In this document: positions 38,118-47,853 of the stretch, piece after piece
Layout of the letters: the number at the start of each line of letters is the position of its first letter
How positions within the stretch are numbered: position 1 is the first letter of the stretch
Notes under the pieces: model-generated
What the model was told of the DNA's origin: nothing
What the model saw: only the letters and a program-made list of their open reading frames with translations
Database searches by the model: none
Translations under genes and position numbers: made by a program
Source of the DNA: Bacteroidota bacterium
Lineage (GTDB): Bacteria > Bacteroidota > Bacteroidia > Bacteroidales > VadinHA17
DNA: 64,000 nt
Assembly: GCA_022561875.1 (NCBI GenBank)
Contig: JADFQJ010000005.1
Location: forward strand, 16,461-80,460
Direction: 5' to 3'

Positions 38118-40451
38118 ATGATTGAAAATTTAGTTATTGTTGAGTCTCCGGCGAAAGCAAAAACCATAGAAAAATTTCTTGGCAGCGACTTTATGGTTAA
38201 ATCCTGTTTCGGTCATGTTCGTGACCTGTCGAAGAAAAATTTCGGTATCGAAATCGAAAATAATTATTCTCCCCAATATATAATAACAGAGGATAAGAAA
38301 AAAATTGTCGGCGAATTAAGAAAGCTGGTAAAAGAATCCACAGTTGTATGGCTTGCAACTGATGAAGACCGTGAAGGAGAAGCTATTGCCTGGCATCTGT
38401 CAGAGATATTGAAATTACCGGCTGAAAACACCAAACGTATTGTTTTCCATGAAATTACAAAGGATGCCATACGGAAAGCCGTAGATAATCCCAGGGGAAT
38501 AAACAAGGATCTTGTAAATGCACAGCAGGCACGCAGGATTTTAGACCGGCTTGTGGGTTTTGAATTGTCGCCTGTTTTGTGGAAAAAAATTCAGCCTAAA
38601 CTATCAGCAGGCAGGGTTCAATCAGTCGCAGTCAGATTATTAGTTGAAAGAGAAAGAGAGGTTCTTCATTTTAAACCGGAATCAAAATTTAAAGTGTATG
38701 GAACCTTTAGCTTTTCTGATAATAATGGGAAAAAAGGAGAGCTCAAAGCAGAAATTCCTGATCGTTTCCCTGGTCCTGATGAAGCAAAAGAATTCCTAAA
38801 CCTTTGTAAAGATGCAGATTTTAAGGTTGTTGATATTACGACCAAACCGTCCCGGAAATCTCCTGCTCCCCCCTTTACAACCTCAACCCTGCAACAGGAA
38901 GCCAGCAAAAAACTGGGGTTTTCAGTATCCCAAACCATGTCGGTTGCACAAAAACTATATGAAGCCGGTTTTATTACTTATATGAGAACTGATTCTTTTA
39001 ACCTCTCAGGTCTTGCTCTGGCAAGCGCGCGCAAAACAATAATTGAAAAGTTCGGAGAAAAATACGCCAAAACCCGTAAATATAAAACAAAAGTAAAAGG
39101 AGCACAGGAGGCACACGAAGCTGTCAGACCAACATATTTTCAAAATAATACAATTAATGGAAACCATTCCGAACAAAGGCTTTATGAATTAATATGGAAA
39201 CGTACTATTGCATCTCAAATGAGTGAAGCACAACTCGAAAAAACCACCGTAACTATCGATGTTCCCAATAGTGACAAGAAATTTATTGCCTCCGGAGAAG
39301 TAATAAAATTTGACGGGTTTTTAAAAATCTATATGGAATCGGGAAATGATAAGTCTGATGATTCTGCAAAAGGATTGCTCCCCCCAGTCAGCGCCGGGCA
39401 AAGTTTGAATTATGAAACTATCAGCGCCAATGAACGGTTCTCAACTTCACCCCCGAGATATACTGAAGCAAGCCTTGTAAAAAAACTTGAAGAACTTGGT
39501 ATTGGCCGCCCTTCCACCTATGCTCCGACAATTTCCACTATCCAGCAGAGAGGTTATGTGCTCAAAGAAGATCGTCCGGGTTTTAACAGAACAGTCAGGA
39601 TAATTTCAATATCGGAAGGGAAATTGGAAGAGAAAACCAAAACTGAAACAGCAGGTACAGAGAAGAAGAAATTGTTCCCAAAAGATATCGGAATGGTTGT
39701 AAATGATTTTCTTCTCGAGCATTTCAGAGATGTCCTGGATTACAATTTTACTGCTTCTGTAGAAAAAGAATTTGATGAAATTGCCGCAGGGAAATTAGAC
39801 TGGACTGAAATGATTGATAACTTTTATAAACCATTCCATGTAAAAGTTGAGAAAAGTCTTGCCGATTCGATAAAGAAAACCGGTGAGCGACAACTTGGTA
39901 AAGACCCTGAAACAGGAAAACCGGTTACAGTTAAAATCGGCAAATATGGCCCCATGGTTCAACTGGGTGATAGCAATAAAGATGAAAAACCCAGGTTTGC
40001 CAGTCTGATGAAAGGGCAGATTATTGAAACAATTACACTCGAAGAAGCCCTTGAATTATTCAAACTCCCGAGAACCATTGGTGATTTTGAAGGGAAAGAT
40101 TTAGTGATTGGAGTTGGCAGATACGGACCGTATCTTCGTCATGATGGCAAGTTTTTTTCGCTTATGAAAGGTACAGACGACCCAATGACTATTATTAAAT
40201 CAAGAGCCATAGAACTGATCGATGAAAACAGGAAAATTGAAAATAAACGGGTCATTAAAAATTTTTCCGCCGACCCTGACATGAAAGTTCTTAGTGGACG
40301 TTATGGTCCTTATATTTCTTATAAAAAGAAAAACTTCAGAATACCCCGGAAAAAAGATCCTGAATCCCTTACATATGACGATTGTATGAAAATTATTGAA
40401 GAGGGACAAAAGAAAGAAAGGCAAAAGGCAAAAGGCAAAAGGCAAAAGTGA
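38118..40451 (+). CDS. topA: DNA topoisomerase I
   Basis: VIVESPAKAKTIEKFLG, LATDEDREGEAIAWHL, GFITYMRTDSFNLS; Bacteroidetes-type C-terminus without zinc ribbons. Confidence 0.96.
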   Translation: MIENLVIVESPAKAKTIEKFLGSDFMVKSCFGHVRDLSKKNFGIEIENNYSPQYIITEDKKKIVGELRKLVKESTVVWLATDEDREGEAIAWHLSEILKLPAENTKRIVFHEITKDAIRKAVDNPRGINKDLVNAQQARRILDRLVGFELSPVLWKKIQPKLSAGRVQSVAVRLLVEREREVLHFKPESKFKVYGTFSFSDNNGKKGELKAEIPDRFPGPDEAKEFLNLCKDADFKVVDITTKPSRKSPAPPFTTSTLQQEASKKLGFSVSQTMSVAQKLYEAGFITYMRTDSFNLSGLALASARKTIIEKFGEKYAKTRKYKTKVKGAQEAHEAVRPTYFQNNTINGNHSEQRLYELIWKRTIASQMSEAQLEKTTVTIDVPNSDKKFIASGEVIKFDGFLKIYMESGNDKSDDSAKGLLPPVSAGQSLNYETISANERFSTSPPRYTEASLVKKLEELGIGRPSTYAPTISTIQQRGYVLKEDRPGFNRTVRIISISEGKLEEKTKTETAGTEKKKLFPKDIGMVVNDFLLEHFRDVLDYNFTASVEKEFDEIAAGKLDWTEMIDNFYKPFHVKVEKSLADSIKKTGERQLGKDPETGKPVTVKIGKYGPMVQLGDSNKDEKPRFASLMKGQIIETITLEEALELFKLPRTIGDFEGKDLVIGVGRYGPYLRHDGKFFSLMKGTDDPMTIIKSRAIELIDENRKIENKRVIKNFSADPDMKVLSGRYGPYISYKKKNFRIPRKKDPESLTYDDCMKIIEEGQKKERQKAKGKRQK
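40420..40447 (+). repeat. Heptanucleotide GGCAAAA x4, inside the 3' end of topA
   Basis: ggcaaaaggcaaaaggcaaaaggcaaaa immediately before the TGA stop. Confidence 0.95.
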
Positions 40452-40740
40452 AGAGAGAAGAAAAAGAAAAGTCAACAGTCGGCAGTCAGCAATCGGCATA
40501 TCGGCAGTTAGCAGTTGGCAAAGAATTAAAACAAGCAAATTTAAAGAAAGAAAAAAGAAAAATGCCACTAAGACACAAAAACACAAAGATTCACAAAGAG
40601 CAGACACTCAATATTTTATACTTATTGAGTTCTTTGAGTCTTCATGCCTTCGTGGCTATAATTACTTTTATGAGTGGACACAACCAGTAACCGGTAACAT
40701 TTTAGTCACTTTTAACTTTATACATTTTTATCTTTTACCC

Positions 40741-41901
40741 ATGGACCTGAATTATTATTTCGATCCTGTAAGTCTGGACAAACCAGGTTTTGAGTTGCTG
40801 CCACCACGTGCTTTATTCAGCAGGAACATCAGTATCCATACACCTAACACACCCGTTGACAAGCTTAATAATTATGATGTTGCAATTGTGGGAGTACCTG
40901 AAGACCGCAATTCCCCTAATAAGGGCTGCTCTCAAGGCCCTGACAAAATAAGAGCCTCGTTATATCAGCTCTCAAAACCGAAGAAAAAATTCAGAATTAT
41001 TGATTTGGGAAATATTAAACAGGGAGAAGAGGTCGATGATACCTACTTTGCATTACGGGATGTGGTTTCAGAACTTCTGCAACAAAAGGTATTCCCTATT
41101 GTAATTGGGGGAAGCCAGGATCTGACGTATGGGGTTTTTAATGCATACGAGAAGAAAGATGCTTTATTGAACCTGGTAACTATCGACTCCAGGATAGATT
41201 GGAAAAATGATCCTGGACAAATCACTTCACAGAACTATCTTGACCAAATCATTTCCCGAAAAGACAGACTTGTACAATACTTTAATATTGGACACCAGGA
41301 CTATTTCACTGATAAAAAGTTATTAAATCAACTCCGTAAAAAATATTTTGACTCATTCCGCATTGGAATGGTAAGGTCAGACATTAAAGAAATGGAACCG
41401 GTATTGAGGGATGCTCATATTGTTAGTCTTGATATTGGTTCCGTAAGGCAATCTGATGCGCCGGGGCACTTTAACCCTTCACCAAACGGTTTTTACGGTG
41501 AAGAGATCTGCCAACTGGCAAAATATGCGGGACTAAGTGACAACCTGCAGGTTTTTGGTATTTTTGAAACCAACCCCACCCTGGATATAAATAACCAATC
41601 TTCCCGGCTGGCAGCACAGATCATTTGGTATTTATTCGAAGGGATGACACAAAAGATTGTTGAAAACCCGGCTGAGCGAAACGGACGGTTTACAAAGTAT
41701 ATAGTAAATTTGAGTGGCGTTGGAAAAGATATTGTTTTTTACAAAAGTAATCAGACTGAAAGGTGGTGGCTGAAAATTCCTGCTCGAAAAACCAATTCGG
41801 CAAAGCCGGAATTCATCGCCTGCACCTATGAAGACTATGTTAAAGCCAGCAGTCAGGAAATACCAGACCGTTGGTGGAAAGCATTCCAGAAACAAGGATA
41901 A
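40741..41901 (+). CDS. Arginase/formimidoylglutamase-fold protein with degraded metal ligands
   Basis: VAIVGVPEDRNSPNKGCSQGPDKIRASLYQL and IVIGGSQDLTYGVF align to the ureohydrolase fold; start MDLNYYFDP at 40741 chosen over the long ORF start 40396. Confidence 0.85.
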   Translation: MDLNYYFDPVSLDKPGFELLPPRALFSRNISIHTPNTPVDKLNNYDVAIVGVPEDRNSPNKGCSQGPDKIRASLYQLSKPKKKFRIIDLGNIKQGEEVDDTYFALRDVVSELLQQKVFPIVIGGSQDLTYGVFNAYEKKDALLNLVTIDSRIDWKNDPGQITSQNYLDQIISRKDRLVQYFNIGHQDYFTDKKLLNQLRKKYFDSFRIGMVRSDIKEMEPVLRDAHIVSLDIGSVRQSDAPGHFNPSPNGFYGEEICQLAKYAGLSDNLQVFGIFETNPTLDINNQSSRLAAQIIWYLFEGMTQKIVENPAERNGRFTKYIVNLSGVGKDIVFYKSNQTERWWLKIPARKTNSAKPEFIACTYEDYVKASSQEIPDRWWKAFQKQG

Positions 41902-42042
41902 TTGCCATTAATCAAATAAGATAAGGAATGGACAAAATTAATTGTATGTTTATAACTTGTTAATTTGATTGAAAATATTATTTTTACTTTTCAAACTTTA
42001 TTATTACAAAACAAGCATATTGCGAAAAAGGGGAGAAATAAG

Positions 42043-42987
42043 TTGGCAAAAAGAGTTAAAATAATTATACTTTTATTATCCGTCTCACTGATATGCCAGG
42101 GGCAACAGGATCCTCAAATCAGCCAGATCATGTTTAACCAGATGTTCATTAACCCTGGATATGCTGGAAGTAGTGACATGATCAGTATTGTAGCCCTGAA
42201 CCGTCAATCCTGGGTTGGGTTTGACGGAGCTCCCAAAACGACAGTTTTTCATGTAAATACCCCTTTTAACCTGTTTGGGATCAATAGCGGAGTCGGATTA
42301 TCACTAATGAGTGACCAGGCCGGTTTTGACGATAATATGAGTATCAATCTCTCTTACGCATACAAGATTGATATTGCATCAGGCAAACTGGGGATTGGTC
42401 TGTCCGTAGGCATGATGAACAAAACATTGGAACCCACATGGATAATCCCAACGAGCGATTACCATGAACCTGCCAGTATTGACCCGTTAATACCTGAGAA
42501 TAATGAAAGCTATGTCGCTTTTGATATGGGTTTTGGAGCATATTTTAAAACCCGCGAATTTTATATTGGAATATCATCAACCCATTTAAACGAAGCGAAA
42601 ATTAAATATTCCAAAGGAACTCCTTACCTTAAGAGACATTATTACTTTATTGCCGGTTACCATCTGCCAATTAACAATCCCATGATAGAGGTTACACCGT
42701 CAATTTACCTGTTTTCGGACGGAAGGATAACTCAGCTTAATATAAACACCAATGTTCAATACAATAAAAAAATATGGGGTGGCGTTACTTACAGAGCAGG
42801 AGATGCCATTATCGGGTTAGTAGGAATGGAGCTTTTCAACGGTGTCAGAGTTGGTTACGCTTACGACTTTGCAACTTCTGATATAAGAAAAAACAGTAGC
42901 GGAAGTCATGAATTAATGATGAGTTATAGCTTTAACCTTAGCTTTGACAGGAGTCCACAACGATACAAAAGTGTAAGATTTTTATGA
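42043..42987 (+). CDS. porP: PorP/SprF family type IX secretion outer-membrane protein
   Basis: QGQQDPQISQIMFNQMFINPGYAGSSDMISIVALNRQSWVGFDGAPKTTVFHVNTPF; probable TTG start at 42043. Confidence 0.92.
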   Translation: MAKRVKIIILLLSVSLICQGQQDPQISQIMFNQMFINPGYAGSSDMISIVALNRQSWVGFDGAPKTTVFHVNTPFNLFGINSGVGLSLMSDQAGFDDNMSINLSYAYKIDIASGKLGIGLSVGMMNKTLEPTWIIPTSDYHEPASIDPLIPENNESYVAFDMGFGAYFKTREFYIGISSTHLNEAKIKYSKGTPYLKRHYYFIAGYHLPINNPMIEVTPSIYLFSDGRITQLNINTNVQYNKKIWGGVTYRAGDAIIGLVGMELFNGVRVGYAYDFATSDIRKNSSGSHELMMSYSFNLSFDRSPQRYKSVRFL

Positions 42988-43033
42988 TTATTGGAAAAAA
43001 TTAATTTACTTGCACTATAAAACTTATATAGCC

Positions 43034-44368
43034 ATGAAAAAAATGTTCTTTTTCTCTATTGTTCTGGCAATTATTTTAAGCAGCTGCGGAGGTCCATCAG
43101 TCAACGGTGAACTGGTTGGAGTGCAGGGCAGGAAAAAATGGTATGAGCCTGATCCTTATGGAATGGTATTTGTTCCGCAGGGAAGCTTCAATATGGGGCC
43201 AAGCGACCAGGATCTTGCCTTTTCAATGGATGCATTCACAAAGACCGTAACTGTAGATGCTTTCTGGATGGACGATACTGAGATCACAAATAATGAATAT
43301 CGCCAGTTTGTAAACTATGTCAGAGATTCTATTCTGCGTTACAAACTGGGAGATGCCGGGATTGAAGGTTTCTTTAAAACTGATGAAAACGGAGATCCTT
43401 ACGACCCACCTGTTATCGACTGGGAAACTGAGATAGATAGCGAGATTGAAGAAATTGCTGACATTGTTGAGGAAATATATTATCCTGAAAACGAAAGGTT
43501 CAATAACAGGAAACAAGTTGATACAAGGAAACTTATTTACACATATTTCTGGATCGATCTGCAACAGGCTGCAAAAGAAACAAGCCGGTATAATTTGGAA
43601 ACCCAGTCGTATGATGGAGAAATAGTTAACCAGGAAGGAGAACGTATCCAGATCGAGAATCGTTCATCTTTCATTATGCATGATGAAGTGACTTGTTATC
43701 CGGATACCCTTGTGTGGATCAGAGACTTTACCTATTCGTATAATGAACCATGGGCAAATATGTATTTCTGGCATCCTTCATTTGATAATTATCCTGTTGT
43801 TGGCGTTACATGGAAGCAAGCAAACGCTTTTAGTATATGGAGAACGAATTATCTTAACGATTATCTTACAATAAAGGGTAATTCATGGGTTCAGGATTAC
43901 CGTTTACCCCTTGAAACTGAATGGGAATATGCTGCCCGGGGCGGGCTGGATCATTCCATGTACCCATGGGGAGGACCATATACCAGAAATGATAAGGGTT
44001 GTTTCCTGGCTAACTTTAAAACATTACGTGGAAATTATATTGACGACGGAGCTTTAATTTCAACAGATGTTGCTTCCTACTCGGCTAACGAATTCGGTTT
44101 GTATGATATGGCTGGGAACGTAGCTGAGTGGACATCAGGCGCTTATGACGAATCAGCGTATGTATTTACACATGATATGAATCCAAATTACCAGTATAAT
44201 GCTCGCATTGATGATCCTCCCGTTATGAAAAGGAAGGTTATACGAGGCGGTTCATGGAAAGATATTGGATATTTCCTTCAGGTTAGTTCAAGAACATATG
44301 AATACCAGGATTCTGCCAAATCCTTTATCGGATTCAGAAATGTTCGATCATATATGGGTTATAAATAA
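43034..44368 (+). CDS. gldK: T9SS/gliding motility lipoprotein GldK (FGE-sulfatase domain)
   Basis: Lipobox ILSSCGG, MVFVPQGSFNMGPSDQD, RLPLETEWEYAARGG, GNVAEWTSGAY, VIRGGSWKD. Confidence 0.94.
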   Translation: MKKMFFFSIVLAIILSSCGGPSVNGELVGVQGRKKWYEPDPYGMVFVPQGSFNMGPSDQDLAFSMDAFTKTVTVDAFWMDDTEITNNEYRQFVNYVRDSILRYKLGDAGIEGFFKTDENGDPYDPPVIDWETEIDSEIEEIADIVEEIYYPENERFNNRKQVDTRKLIYTYFWIDLQQAAKETSRYNLETQSYDGEIVNQEGERIQIENRSSFIMHDEVTCYPDTLVWIRDFTYSYNEPWANMYFWHPSFDNYPVVGVTWKQANAFSIWRTNYLNDYLTIKGNSWVQDYRLPLETEWEYAARGGLDHSMYPWGGPYTRNDKGCFLANFKTLRGNYIDDGALISTDVASYSANEFGLYDMAGNVAEWTSGAYDESAYVFTHDMNPNYQYNARIDDPPVMKRKVIRGGSWKDIGYFLQVSSRTYEYQDSAKSFIGFRNVRSYMGYK

Positions 44369-44400
44369 TTTTTTCAGATTAATAATAAAATTCAACTATT

Positions 44401-45306
44401 ATGAATGTAACTGAATTAGTAGAAAGCAGTGGTTGGAAAAACTTTATGTCAAAACTCTATGGCATTGGTGCATCGATTGTAATTATTGGCGCTCTTTTTA
44501 AAATCCAGCACTGGCCTCTTGCCGGACTTCTTTTAACTATTGGGCTTATGACCGAAGCAGTAATCTTTTTCTTCTCGGCATTTGAACCACTTCACGAAGA
44601 GGTTGACTGGACTCTTGTATATCCTGAATTAGCAGGTATGAATGATGATGAGGAAGATCTTGCCCAGTTCAAACCTGCGGGCAGAGGAAGCAGTTCGGCT
44701 CTGGAAAAGTTTGATGCTTTGCTTGAACAGGGAGAACTCACTCCTGATCTCTTTAATAAACTTGGCAAAGGTCTTAGTAAACTTAATGAAACAACAGCCA
44801 GATTATCCGATATTTCGGATGCCAGCGTTGCTACAAATGATTATGTTAACAGCATTAAGGAAGCTGCCAATAGTGTTGATTCGTACACAGAATCATATGT
44901 CAAATCAACTGAAGAGTTGAAAGAATCTGTTACCAGACTCTCCGGATCATATGACAAAACAGCTAACCTGATAGCAGAATCAGGTAGTAACTATCAGCAA
45001 TTATCTGAATCATTTTCAGTTATTGAGGATGGTAGCAAGTCGTATGGAGAACAACTTGAAGCGCTTAACAAAAACCTCTCTGCATTAAATGCAGTTTATG
45101 AACTGCAGTTACAAGGAACCAGTGATCATCTTAAAACGTCCGAGTCTCTGTATGAAAATCTTGATACAATGATGGATGATTTGAGAGATACTGCCGAAGA
45201 CACTAAGAAATATCGCGAAGAGGTTGCAAAACTTAACGAAAACCTGTCTGCCCTGAATACCGTATACGGTAATATGTTGGCGGCTATGAACGTTATGGGC
45301 AAATAG
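44401..45306 (+). CDS. gldL: T9SS motor protein GldL
   Basis: MSKLYGIGASIVIIGALFKIQHWPLAGLLLTIGLMTEAVIFFFSAFEP; coiled-coil C-terminus; order between gldK and gldM. Confidence 0.95.
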   Translation: MNVTELVESSGWKNFMSKLYGIGASIVIIGALFKIQHWPLAGLLLTIGLMTEAVIFFFSAFEPLHEEVDWTLVYPELAGMNDDEEDLAQFKPAGRGSSSALEKFDALLEQGELTPDLFNKLGKGLSKLNETTARLSDISDASVATNDYVNSIKEAANSVDSYTESYVKSTEELKESVTRLSGSYDKTANLIAESGSNYQQLSESFSVIEDGSKSYGEQLEALNKNLSALNAVYELQLQGTSDHLKTSESLYENLDTMMDDLRDTAEDTKKYREEVAKLNENLSALNTVYGNMLAAMNVMGK

Positions 45307-45344
45307 TAATATTCAGTTTTAATTATAAATTTCATCCCTGAATT

Positions 45345-46976
45345 ATGGCCGGAAAAGAAACCCCAAGGCAAAAAATGATTGGCATGATGTATTTGGTGCT
45401 CACCGCATTGCTGGCGCTGAATGTGTCAAAAGATGCCGTGGAAGCTTTTAAACTTGTTGACAAAAGTCTTACCAAAACCACTGAAAATTTTAGCAGTAAA
45501 AACGAATTAATCTACCAGGAATTCGATCAGGCTGCAAGTGAAAATCCAATAAAAGCAGGTCCATGGAGAAATATTGCTAACGGGGTCAGGGAGCGTGCCG
45601 ACGAGATGTATGACTATATACAGGAACTGAAGATCGAGATAATTCAGACTGCCGAGGGAAAAGATACTGAAGCTCTTGAAGGAGATGTGATCATCGTTGA
45701 ACATATCAGAAAAATTGATGAGAATAATATTCCTTCACAGATACTTGTTGGATCAGACCAGAATGGAAAGGCTTTTGACATGAAAGCTGCAATGGAAGAA
45801 TACCGTGGGTTTTTAATGGATATAGTTGGAAACAAGAATGTCAGTGTCTCATCTTCAATCGAAGCCGGTCTTAATACAGATGATCCTGTAATTAAAGGAG
45901 AAAAGCAGCTTTGGGTTAATCACATGTTCCAGGCATCACCTCTTATCGCTTCAATCACTTTGTTATCCAAATTACAAAGCGATGTAAGAAATGCTGAAGC
46001 TGAAACTATTAATTTCCTTTATCAGCAAATTGATGCCGGAGCTTTTAAATTTAACAAGCTGATCCAGACTGTAATTACTAATTCGAACTATATTATGAAA
46101 GGCAATGAATATAAGGCTGAGGTATTCATCGCTGCAACAGACACAACACAACAACCTGAAGTCTTGGTGGGAAAATATGAAACTACTGTTAATGCCAATG
46201 GAATTAAAGAATACCGTATGATTGGTGATTACCAAACATTAACCGTAGATGAGCGTGGACGGGGAATATACAAGTTAAGACCTACTGTTTTAGGAGATAA
46301 AACCTGGGGCGGACTTATTAAAATGAAAGCCCCTGATGGAAGTATTATTAATTATCCTTTCCAGGCAAAATATACGGTTGCACCACCTAATGTGGTTGTT
46401 TCTCCCACTGCTATGAATGTTTTTTACGTTGGCGTCCAGAATCCTGTAGATATTTCCGTTTCCGGAGCAAGTTCTGATAAAACTTATGCCACTATGACAA
46501 ACGGCACAATAAAAAGAGGAACTACCAGGAAGTTCCGTGGTTCATTTATTGCAAGCCCTAGAACTCCCGGTCAAATTGCCAATGTTACGGTTACTGCCGA
46601 AATTAATGGCGAAAAACGTTCGTTTGCACCTATCCCTTTCAGGGTAGAAGTTGTACCTGACCCTGTTGCAAAAGTTGGTGATAAAAACAGCGGGTCAATT
46701 GCAAAATCACTCCTGGAGGTCCAGGTGGCAGTTTTTGCTGAACTGGAAAATTTCCTGTTCGATATACATTATGATATCACCGCCTTTACGATTGAAATAA
46801 CCGACCGCGGGTTTACCGTTACCGAAGCATCAAGCAGCCACAGAATTACAGCAGCCCAAAAAACCTTAATTAACAGATTAAAGAGGGATAGCCGTATTGT
46901 ATTTACTGATGTAAAAGCAGTCGGTCCGGATGGACGTCAAAGGTCGCTTCCCCCAATCGTTCTGAGAATTGAATAA
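45345..46976 (+). CDS. gldM: T9SS motor protein GldM
   Basis: MAGKETPRQKMIGMMYLVLTALLALNVSKDAVEAF. Confidence 0.96.
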   Translation: MAGKETPRQKMIGMMYLVLTALLALNVSKDAVEAFKLVDKSLTKTTENFSSKNELIYQEFDQAASENPIKAGPWRNIANGVRERADEMYDYIQELKIEIIQTAEGKDTEALEGDVIIVEHIRKIDENNIPSQILVGSDQNGKAFDMKAAMEEYRGFLMDIVGNKNVSVSSSIEAGLNTDDPVIKGEKQLWVNHMFQASPLIASITLLSKLQSDVRNAEAETINFLYQQIDAGAFKFNKLIQTVITNSNYIMKGNEYKAEVFIAATDTTQQPEVLVGKYETTVNANGIKEYRMIGDYQTLTVDERGRGIYKLRPTVLGDKTWGGLIKMKAPDGSIINYPFQAKYTVAPPNVVVSPTAMNVFYVGVQNPVDISVSGASSDKTYATMTNGTIKRGTTRKFRGSFIASPRTPGQIANVTVTAEINGEKRSFAPIPFRVEVVPDPVAKVGDKNSGSIAKSLLEVQVAVFAELENFLFDIHYDITAFTIEITDRGFTVTEASSSHRITAAQKTLINRLKRDSRIVFTDVKAVGPDGRQRSLPPIVLRIE

Positions 46977-46995
46977 TAAAAAACTTATTTACATT

Positions 46996-47853
46996 ATGAA
47001 AAAGCATAGAATAATATTTTCAGGAATACTTTTTCTGACCATTTTATTTTCTTCTGCACTGAAAATATCAGCTCAGGAATCCCCTGCATGGGTAAAAGGC
47101 TTATATAAAAAAGATATTAAGGATAAATCACCGATCCCTTACTCTCACCTGCGTGAAGCAGATGTTATGTGGTCAAAAAAAATATGGAGGGAGATCGACC
47201 TTAGAAAAAAAATGAATCAGCCTTTATATTTTCCTGTTGAACCGATTGGTGATCGTGTAAGTCTTATACATATAATTCTCGCTGAAATTAAGTCGGGAAC
47301 AGTAAATGCTTACGATGCCGATGTTGGTTATGATATGACCGTAAAGATCACCCAGGCTGATATAGACAGGAATATGGGAGCTAGAACTGACTCAACAAGT
47401 ATCCAGATAGCCCCCGGTGTTTATAGAGATACTATAACTGTTACGGAACCAAGTTTTGAAGATGTTAAGCAGATCCAGGTTATGGAAGAGTGGTTCTTTG
47501 ATAAAAAACACTCCCGGATGGATGTCAGGATTCTTGGATTAATGCCAATCCGGCACTTTTATAACATAGAACGCGGTGAATTTCAAAAAGTAAGGATATG
47601 CTGGATTTATTATCCTGATTTCAGGAATACTTTTGCAAATCATGAAATTTTTAATCCCAACAATGATGCTCATCGAATCTCTTTTGACGATTTCTTTATG
47701 CAAAGAAGATTCAGCAGTACAATTATTGCTGAATCAAACGTTTACAATAACCGTCAAATAAATCAATATGAAACAGGGAAAGAGGCGCTGATTGAAGCAC
47801 AACGTATAAAAGATTATATATTCAACTTTGAACATGATCTCTGGGAATACTAA
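46996..47853 (+). CDS. gldN: T9SS component GldN
   Basis: SHLREADVMWSKKIWREIDLRKKMNQPLYFP...YNNRQINQYETGKEALIEAQRIKDYIFNFEHDLWEY. Confidence 0.95.
   Translation: MKKHRIIFSGILFLTILFSSALKISAQESPAWVKGLYKKDIKDKSPIPYSHLREADVMWSKKIWREIDLRKKMNQPLYFPVEPIGDRVSLIHIILAEIKSGTVNAYDADVGYDMTVKITQADIDRNMGARTDSTSIQIAPGVYRDTITVTEPSFEDVKQIQVMEEWFFDKKHSRMDVRILGLMPIRHFYNIERGEFQKVRICWIYYPDFRNTFANHEIFNPNNDAHRISFDDFFMQRRFSSTIIAESNVYNNRQINQYETGKEALIEAQRIKDYIFNFEHDLWEY

Follow-up and report, generated by a model that had tools for sequence, protein, structure and literature searches.

What is the role of a protein that has the fold of an arginase, shows altered metal-binding motifs and is encoded between topA and the core operon of the T9SS? 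This question was raised by a 386-aa protein encoded in the window, the 64,000-nucleotide stretch of Bacteroidota DNA analysed here. The label pArg is used below for the family of this Arginase-fold protein.

The pArg locus and its product

In the window, topA, pArg and porP-gldK-gldL-gldM-gldN (41965-47853) followed one another on the + strand. NCBIfam matches above cut-off agreed in this respect with the initial annotation, which had placed the gene between topA and porP-gldKLMN on one strand. The locus comprised the following features:

38118..40451, + strand: topA, the conserved upstream partner (above NCBIfam cut-off)
40452..40740, no strand: topA-pArg spacer of 289 bp, with A/G-rich repeats near its start (sequence)
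40741..41901, + strand, stop codon included: pArg, 386-aa putative pseudoenzyme with Arginase/HutG fold (Pfam, NCBIfam, AF2, Foldseek)
41965..42987, + strand: porP/sprF family gene, the first after pArg; open reading frame, likely start near 42043 (NCBIfam)
43010..47853, + strand: gldK, gldL, gldM and gldN, the T9SS core operon (each above NCBIfam cut-off)

The pArg reading frame encodes ...IVIGGSQDLTYG...VTIDSRIDWK...VSLDIGSVRQSDAPG..., and no signal peptide was apparent in this sequence. Short A/G-rich repeats occurred at 40404-40560, in the 3' end of topA and the spacer, where an open frame is joined to pArg on its upstream side.

The initial annotation had stated that the ureohydrolase framework is retained and had proposed a structure prediction as a check. 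Homology, Pfam score and fold all placed pArg in the Arginase/ureohydrolase superfamily (PF00491; 7e-30, 104.9 bits versus a gathering score of 22). An AF2 model calculated from a 55-row alignment reached a pLDDT of 90.8 and a pTM of 0.92, and its top Foldseek match in the PDB was Bacillus subtilis formimidoylglutamase (3m1r, E 2.6e-20, TM (target) 0.79). A viral fold search returned viral arginases as its sole matches. The best NCBIfam family was hutG (TIGR01227), at 112.9 bits, below the equivalog cut-off of 229.15, so that pArg does not qualify as a HutG equivalog.

Metformin hydrolase structures also ranked high among the Foldseek matches. In this enzyme an arginase-family subunit lacks metal, an exact precedent (PMC11271267, PMC11399263) by which pArg would be the catalytically inactive subunit of a working ureohydrolase, as MetCb/MefH-beta is. 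In a profile search, however, the window's own genome yielded no PF00491 gene besides pArg, which excludes a partner subunit as far as the assembly shows, save in its missing 2%, and most genomes matched the family profile just once. Such a subunit role is therefore very improbable.

Loss of the binuclear manganese site

Alignment identified the remnants of the active site, all on the + strand:

41107..41121: former GGDHS motif, now GGSQD (residues 123-127), with Gln126 in place of the metal His
41185..41199: former DAHxD motif, now DSRID (149-153), with both Asp intact and Arg151 in place of the metal His
41425..41457: former SxDxDxxDP motif, now SLDIGSVRQSD (229-239), with Asp231 intact and Gly233 in place of the second metal Asp
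41566..41568: Glu276, corresponding to the Glu that binds guanidinium in arginases (alignment of relatives)

The three altered signatures were thus found as first described, as was the loss of both metal-binding His and one Asp. In arginase numbering, the Mn ligands H101, H126 and D234 are replaced by Q126, R151 and G233, while D124 (D149), D128 (D153) and D232 (D231) are retained, together with E276. Three of the six ligands (two His and four Asp) of a Mn-dependent ureohydrolase therefore remain in the window's protein. Across 125 pArg relatives, the lost positions kept the ligand in 11 (H101), four (H126) and one (D234). None of the relatives had the complete set, and 112 kept one to three ligands. 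The retained carboxylates were well conserved across most of the family (D124 in 122/125, D128 in 115/125 and D232 in 120/125; 92-98%), as was the Glu276 position (E in 93/125, D in 21/125), whose guanidinium-binding role we assume from E277 of rat arginase I.

Since ligand loss recurs across the 125 relatives, the emptied site is a family trait rather than an oddity of one genome. Together with dN/dS values of 0.09-0.19 among congeners, the absence of a complete ligand set from all relatives also argues against chance and supports loss of the binuclear Mn site. Formiminoglutamase of T. cruzi natively carries Asn instead of the first His and was solved with Mn2 (titles of 4mxr and of the N114H variant 4myn). 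Loss of H101 alone is thus not disabling, and the losses of H126 and D234 carry the argument. Judged from these ligand losses, pArg is probably non-enzymatic.

Against a metal-free site, the three Asp and Q126 could hold one metal ion. Retention of D149, D153 and D231 in most relatives and the presence of five polar or Cys positions that were invariant in 125/125 (C257, C361, Q186, R223 and E219) would fit an enzyme that uses a mononuclear metal or other chemistry. However, the divergent relatives L196-L199 had still fewer ligands, with D124 and D232 also missing in L196-L198; in the f14 lineages D124 and D232 are gone, yet the fold and the C-terminal tail persist. Retention of the gene in the f14 lineages and in L199 despite loss of these Asp, as well as the absence of any recurrent metabolic neighbour in pArg loci, makes continued enzyme activity unlikely. 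The ligand losses in L196-L199 offer a natural experiment on the importance of any metal binding.

A conserved C-terminal domain

Beyond the arginase part, the models and the alignment revealed an additional region:

41647..41898, + strand: C-terminal extension (residues 303-386, ~84 aa) with four strands and two helices

Its beta4-alpha2 arrangement was seen in both models, and it carries the motif FYKS..T.RWW...PC.Y.DY..A...E.P.RWW, in which F31, R39, W40, W41, C59, D63, Y64 and P73 (domain numbering) were invariant in 55 sequences. The extension was conserved in aligned pArg relatives and absent from short relatives with an intact site. No match for the domain was found above cut-off in Pfam or in the PDB (phmmer best 0.54, Foldseek best E 3.3), and assignment to a PUR/whirly-like or other known fold was rejected on these values.

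Probable origin from a formimidoylglutamase-like enzyme

In a tree of the arginase part, all extension-bearing members formed one clade (100% SH-aLRT) on a long stem of 1.61 changes/site; rows L018, L195 and L199 had long branches and were placed less certainly. The clade's neighbours were short relatives of about 310-340 aa from outside Bacteroidia, with canonical or near-canonical motifs (e.g. GGGHDI / DTHLD / SFDMDAVRSSDAP). Loss of the Mn site, retention of the fold and gain of the beta4-alpha2 domain are documented by sequence, alignment, tree and model.

Gene neighbourhoods were examined for ten short-relative loci. NCBIfam identified hutI beside the short relative in three of these ten (L202, L205 and L206); the neighbour proteins submitted from L201, L203 and L210 were not hutI. 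When neighbours were listed by open reading frame and compared against window genes only, none of the ten loci showed linkage of the intact-site relative to topA or the T9SS. Because the closest short relatives keep the metal motifs and three of ten lie beside hutI, pArg is probably a pseudoenzyme derived from formimidoylglutamase (HutG).

The possibility that pArg serves as the HutG of the window's genome was rejected. This genome does contain hutI, at a contig end, but FtcD adjoins hutI in a genome of the same family and in another genome of the order, so that the HutG step can be carried out otherwise. FtcD was not seen in the window's own genome.

Distribution and constraint

At a threshold of E <= 1e-15, the pArg family was present, mostly as a single copy, in 188/197 Bacteroidia genomes, which bears out its expected conservation across this class. 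GldM was found in 192/197 of these genomes and was essentially absent outside Bacteroidia (three weak matches in 50). Both proteins were essentially confined to Bacteroidia in the samples searched. The dN/dS values of ~0.1 among congeners indicated purifying selection. Loss of the enzyme site, and the lack of pArg in a set of T9SS-positive Bacteroidales genomes, would agree with a functionless relic carried along by its neighbours. Near-universal retention in the class, low dN/dS, a conserved added domain and persistence of the gene where it is unlinked from both topA and the T9SS render a relic scarcely credible.

Gene order around pArg

Among the matches listed, topA directly preceded pArg in the same orientation in 83/127 genomes, and gldM lay within 10 kb in 59/105 class genomes, always downstream and on the same strand. 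The initial annotation had described such a gene near topA/gldK in many Bacteroidetes, and synteny with both topA and the core of the T9SS is indeed real. In the remaining 46/105 genomes (among the matches listed), the T9SS core was not within 10 kb on the contig of pArg, in some cases because of contig breaks. Where all three could be placed among the matches listed, pArg was linked to topA and the T9SS in 51 genomes, to topA only in 11, to the T9SS only in three and to neither in 20, some of these separations being contig breaks.

In 80 further loci, which lean towards a few orders because they were drawn from the window's nearest relatives, topA preceded pArg in nearly all cases with enough upstream sequence. 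The topA-pArg gap had a median of 15 bp (75 loci), often with -4/-1 overlaps, as compared with 173 bp for the pArg-porP gap (n=56). Strand and operon-like spacing thus place pArg in an operon with topA, to which the 289-bp gap of the window is an exception; no match to a Bacteroidota -33/-7 promoter was found in this spacer. The Bacteroidota -7 element TAnnTTTG was enriched in the pArg-porP gap (28/55 versus 9.6 in mononucleotide shuffles). Fusion of pArg to topA in the long-frame genomes G499, G519 and G572 was rejected, as the open reading frames are separate.

The link to topA is not obligatory, since about one genome in three no longer has it. Neighbours vary there, and no recurrent metabolic neighbour was found beside pArg loci. 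At nine of 20 loci unlinked from topA and the T9SS (L161-L163, L165-L168, L172 and L176), an open reading frame of 323-355 aa occurred on the opposite strand within about 200 bp. From motif reading alone, its N-terminus (L161, L163, L166 and L168) contains a Rossmann-type TGxTGFLG like that of NAD-dependent epimerases.

Loss of the Mn site, conservation across Bacteroidia and synteny together suggest that pArg probably has a conserved, non-enzymatic role.

Dependence on the T9SS

The initial annotation had suggested a link of this role to the T9SS or gliding and had proposed a comparison of genomes with and without the T9SS. For the 149 genomes of the window's order, partly by elimination and among the matches listed, pArg was present in 105 genomes, each with GldM or SprA, and absent from 37 T9SS-positive genomes and from all seven that lacked both GldM and SprA. 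The contrast between 105/142 and 0/7 (among the matches listed) gave a Fisher probability of about 1e-4, which ignores kinship. The matches in G602 and G695, which cover the arginase part only (about residues 28-304), do not enter the pArg count.

These data bear on the proposal that pArg is a T9SS or gliding accessory that works from the cytoplasm on the GldLM motor or influences expression or assembly of the T9SS core. Its absence from T9SS-negative genomes of the order, the class boundary shared with GldM and the consistent position of gldM downstream are in line with such a function. Shared ancestry would, however, produce the same nesting and explains the boundary and the 0/7 equally well. 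The 37 T9SS-positive genomes without pArg indicate that the T9SS can work without it, whereas a T9SS component should be present wherever the system is. Furthermore, the close neighbour of pArg is topA rather than gldK, the gap to porP is long and enriched in TAnnTTTG, and many genomes have no T9SS core nearby. As co-occurrence and synteny do exist, the accessory role is weakened rather than refuted, and is considered doubtful; pArg is probably not a part of the secretion system. The initial reading was thus half right: a conserved pseudoenzyme is supported, with a tie to topA (11 topA-only versus three T9SS-only genomes) better than one to the T9SS.

A literature search on arginase-like genes with the T9SS, gldK or Flavobacterium returned nothing relevant. 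One genome of the class set (G456; 95% complete) contained pArg and topA and gave no match to GldM or SprA, reflecting either an incomplete assembly or a real loss of the T9SS with pArg kept. Duplications of the T9SS core were also seen, with gldM-gldN present twice in L121 (15028-19552) and a second gldN near gldN in L156 and L159; GldM matches were numerous in some genomes (eight in G677).

Proposed role of pArg

We propose, with a probability of about 0.6, that pArg is a cytoplasmic, non-catalytic pseudoenzyme descended from a HutG-like ureohydrolase, made together with TopA and binding a partner through its C-terminal domain. It would have originated once, on the stem of the class Bacteroidia. 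There, the binuclear Mn site of a formimidoylglutamase-like enzyme would have disappeared and the beta4-alpha2 domain would have been added, while the alpha/beta fold and, in most cases, the remaining carboxylates were preserved. Operon spacing suggests co-transcription with topA, and a cytoplasmic location is predicted from sequence. The conserved, tryptophan-rich C-terminal domain would most likely bind the partner, while the emptied pocket would at most bind a small guanidino or polyamine-like ligand. Ureohydrolases are oligomeric, and pArg may be so too. A housekeeping role tied to TopA or to chromosome state would agree better with the gene order than a role specific to the T9SS. A more elaborate version would make pArg a regulator in the cytoplasm that couples TopA activity or DNA supercoiling to adjacent envelope functions including the T9SS, perhaps through a guanidino or polyamine ligand sensed in the emptied pocket; this seems a long shot.

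Comparison with known systems

Since hutG is the nearest NCBIfam family, transfer of its name could credit Bacteroidia with a HutG or arginase activity that is absent; pArg is almost certainly not that enzyme. As a constrained, class-wide and mostly single-copy protein of the topA operon, it lends itself directly to genetic study. It also represents a clear case of an enzyme that became a pseudoenzyme and acquired a domain along one stem.

An arginase-like protein of T. brucei reportedly represents a ureohydrolase fold that evolved without a binuclear Mn cluster (Hai et al. 2015, cited in PMC11271267). This protein, likened to pArg by description, is eukaryotic and, unlike pArg, has no topA or T9SS context.

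Metal-less arginase-family proteins have precedents, one of which is the structural partner of an active subunit (PMC11271267, PMC11399263). In MetCb, an arginase-family subunit without metal, five of the six ligands are changed (PMC11271267). MetCb/MefH-beta of metformin hydrolase (8ryi, 8snf) resembles pArg, an arginase-family protein predicted to lack metal. MetCb, however, forms a pair with an active paralogue whose gene lies alongside, no counterpart of which was found in the window's genome, and a C-terminal domain of the pArg kind has not been reported for MetCb/MefH-beta.

HutG (TIGR01227; B. subtilis 3m1r) shares with pArg its fold, is its best sequence and structure match and is its phylogenetic neighbour. 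In contrast to HutG, pArg has lost half of the metal ligands, scores 113 bits against a 229-bit cut-off, lies outside a hut locus and carries an extra C-terminal domain of 84 aa.
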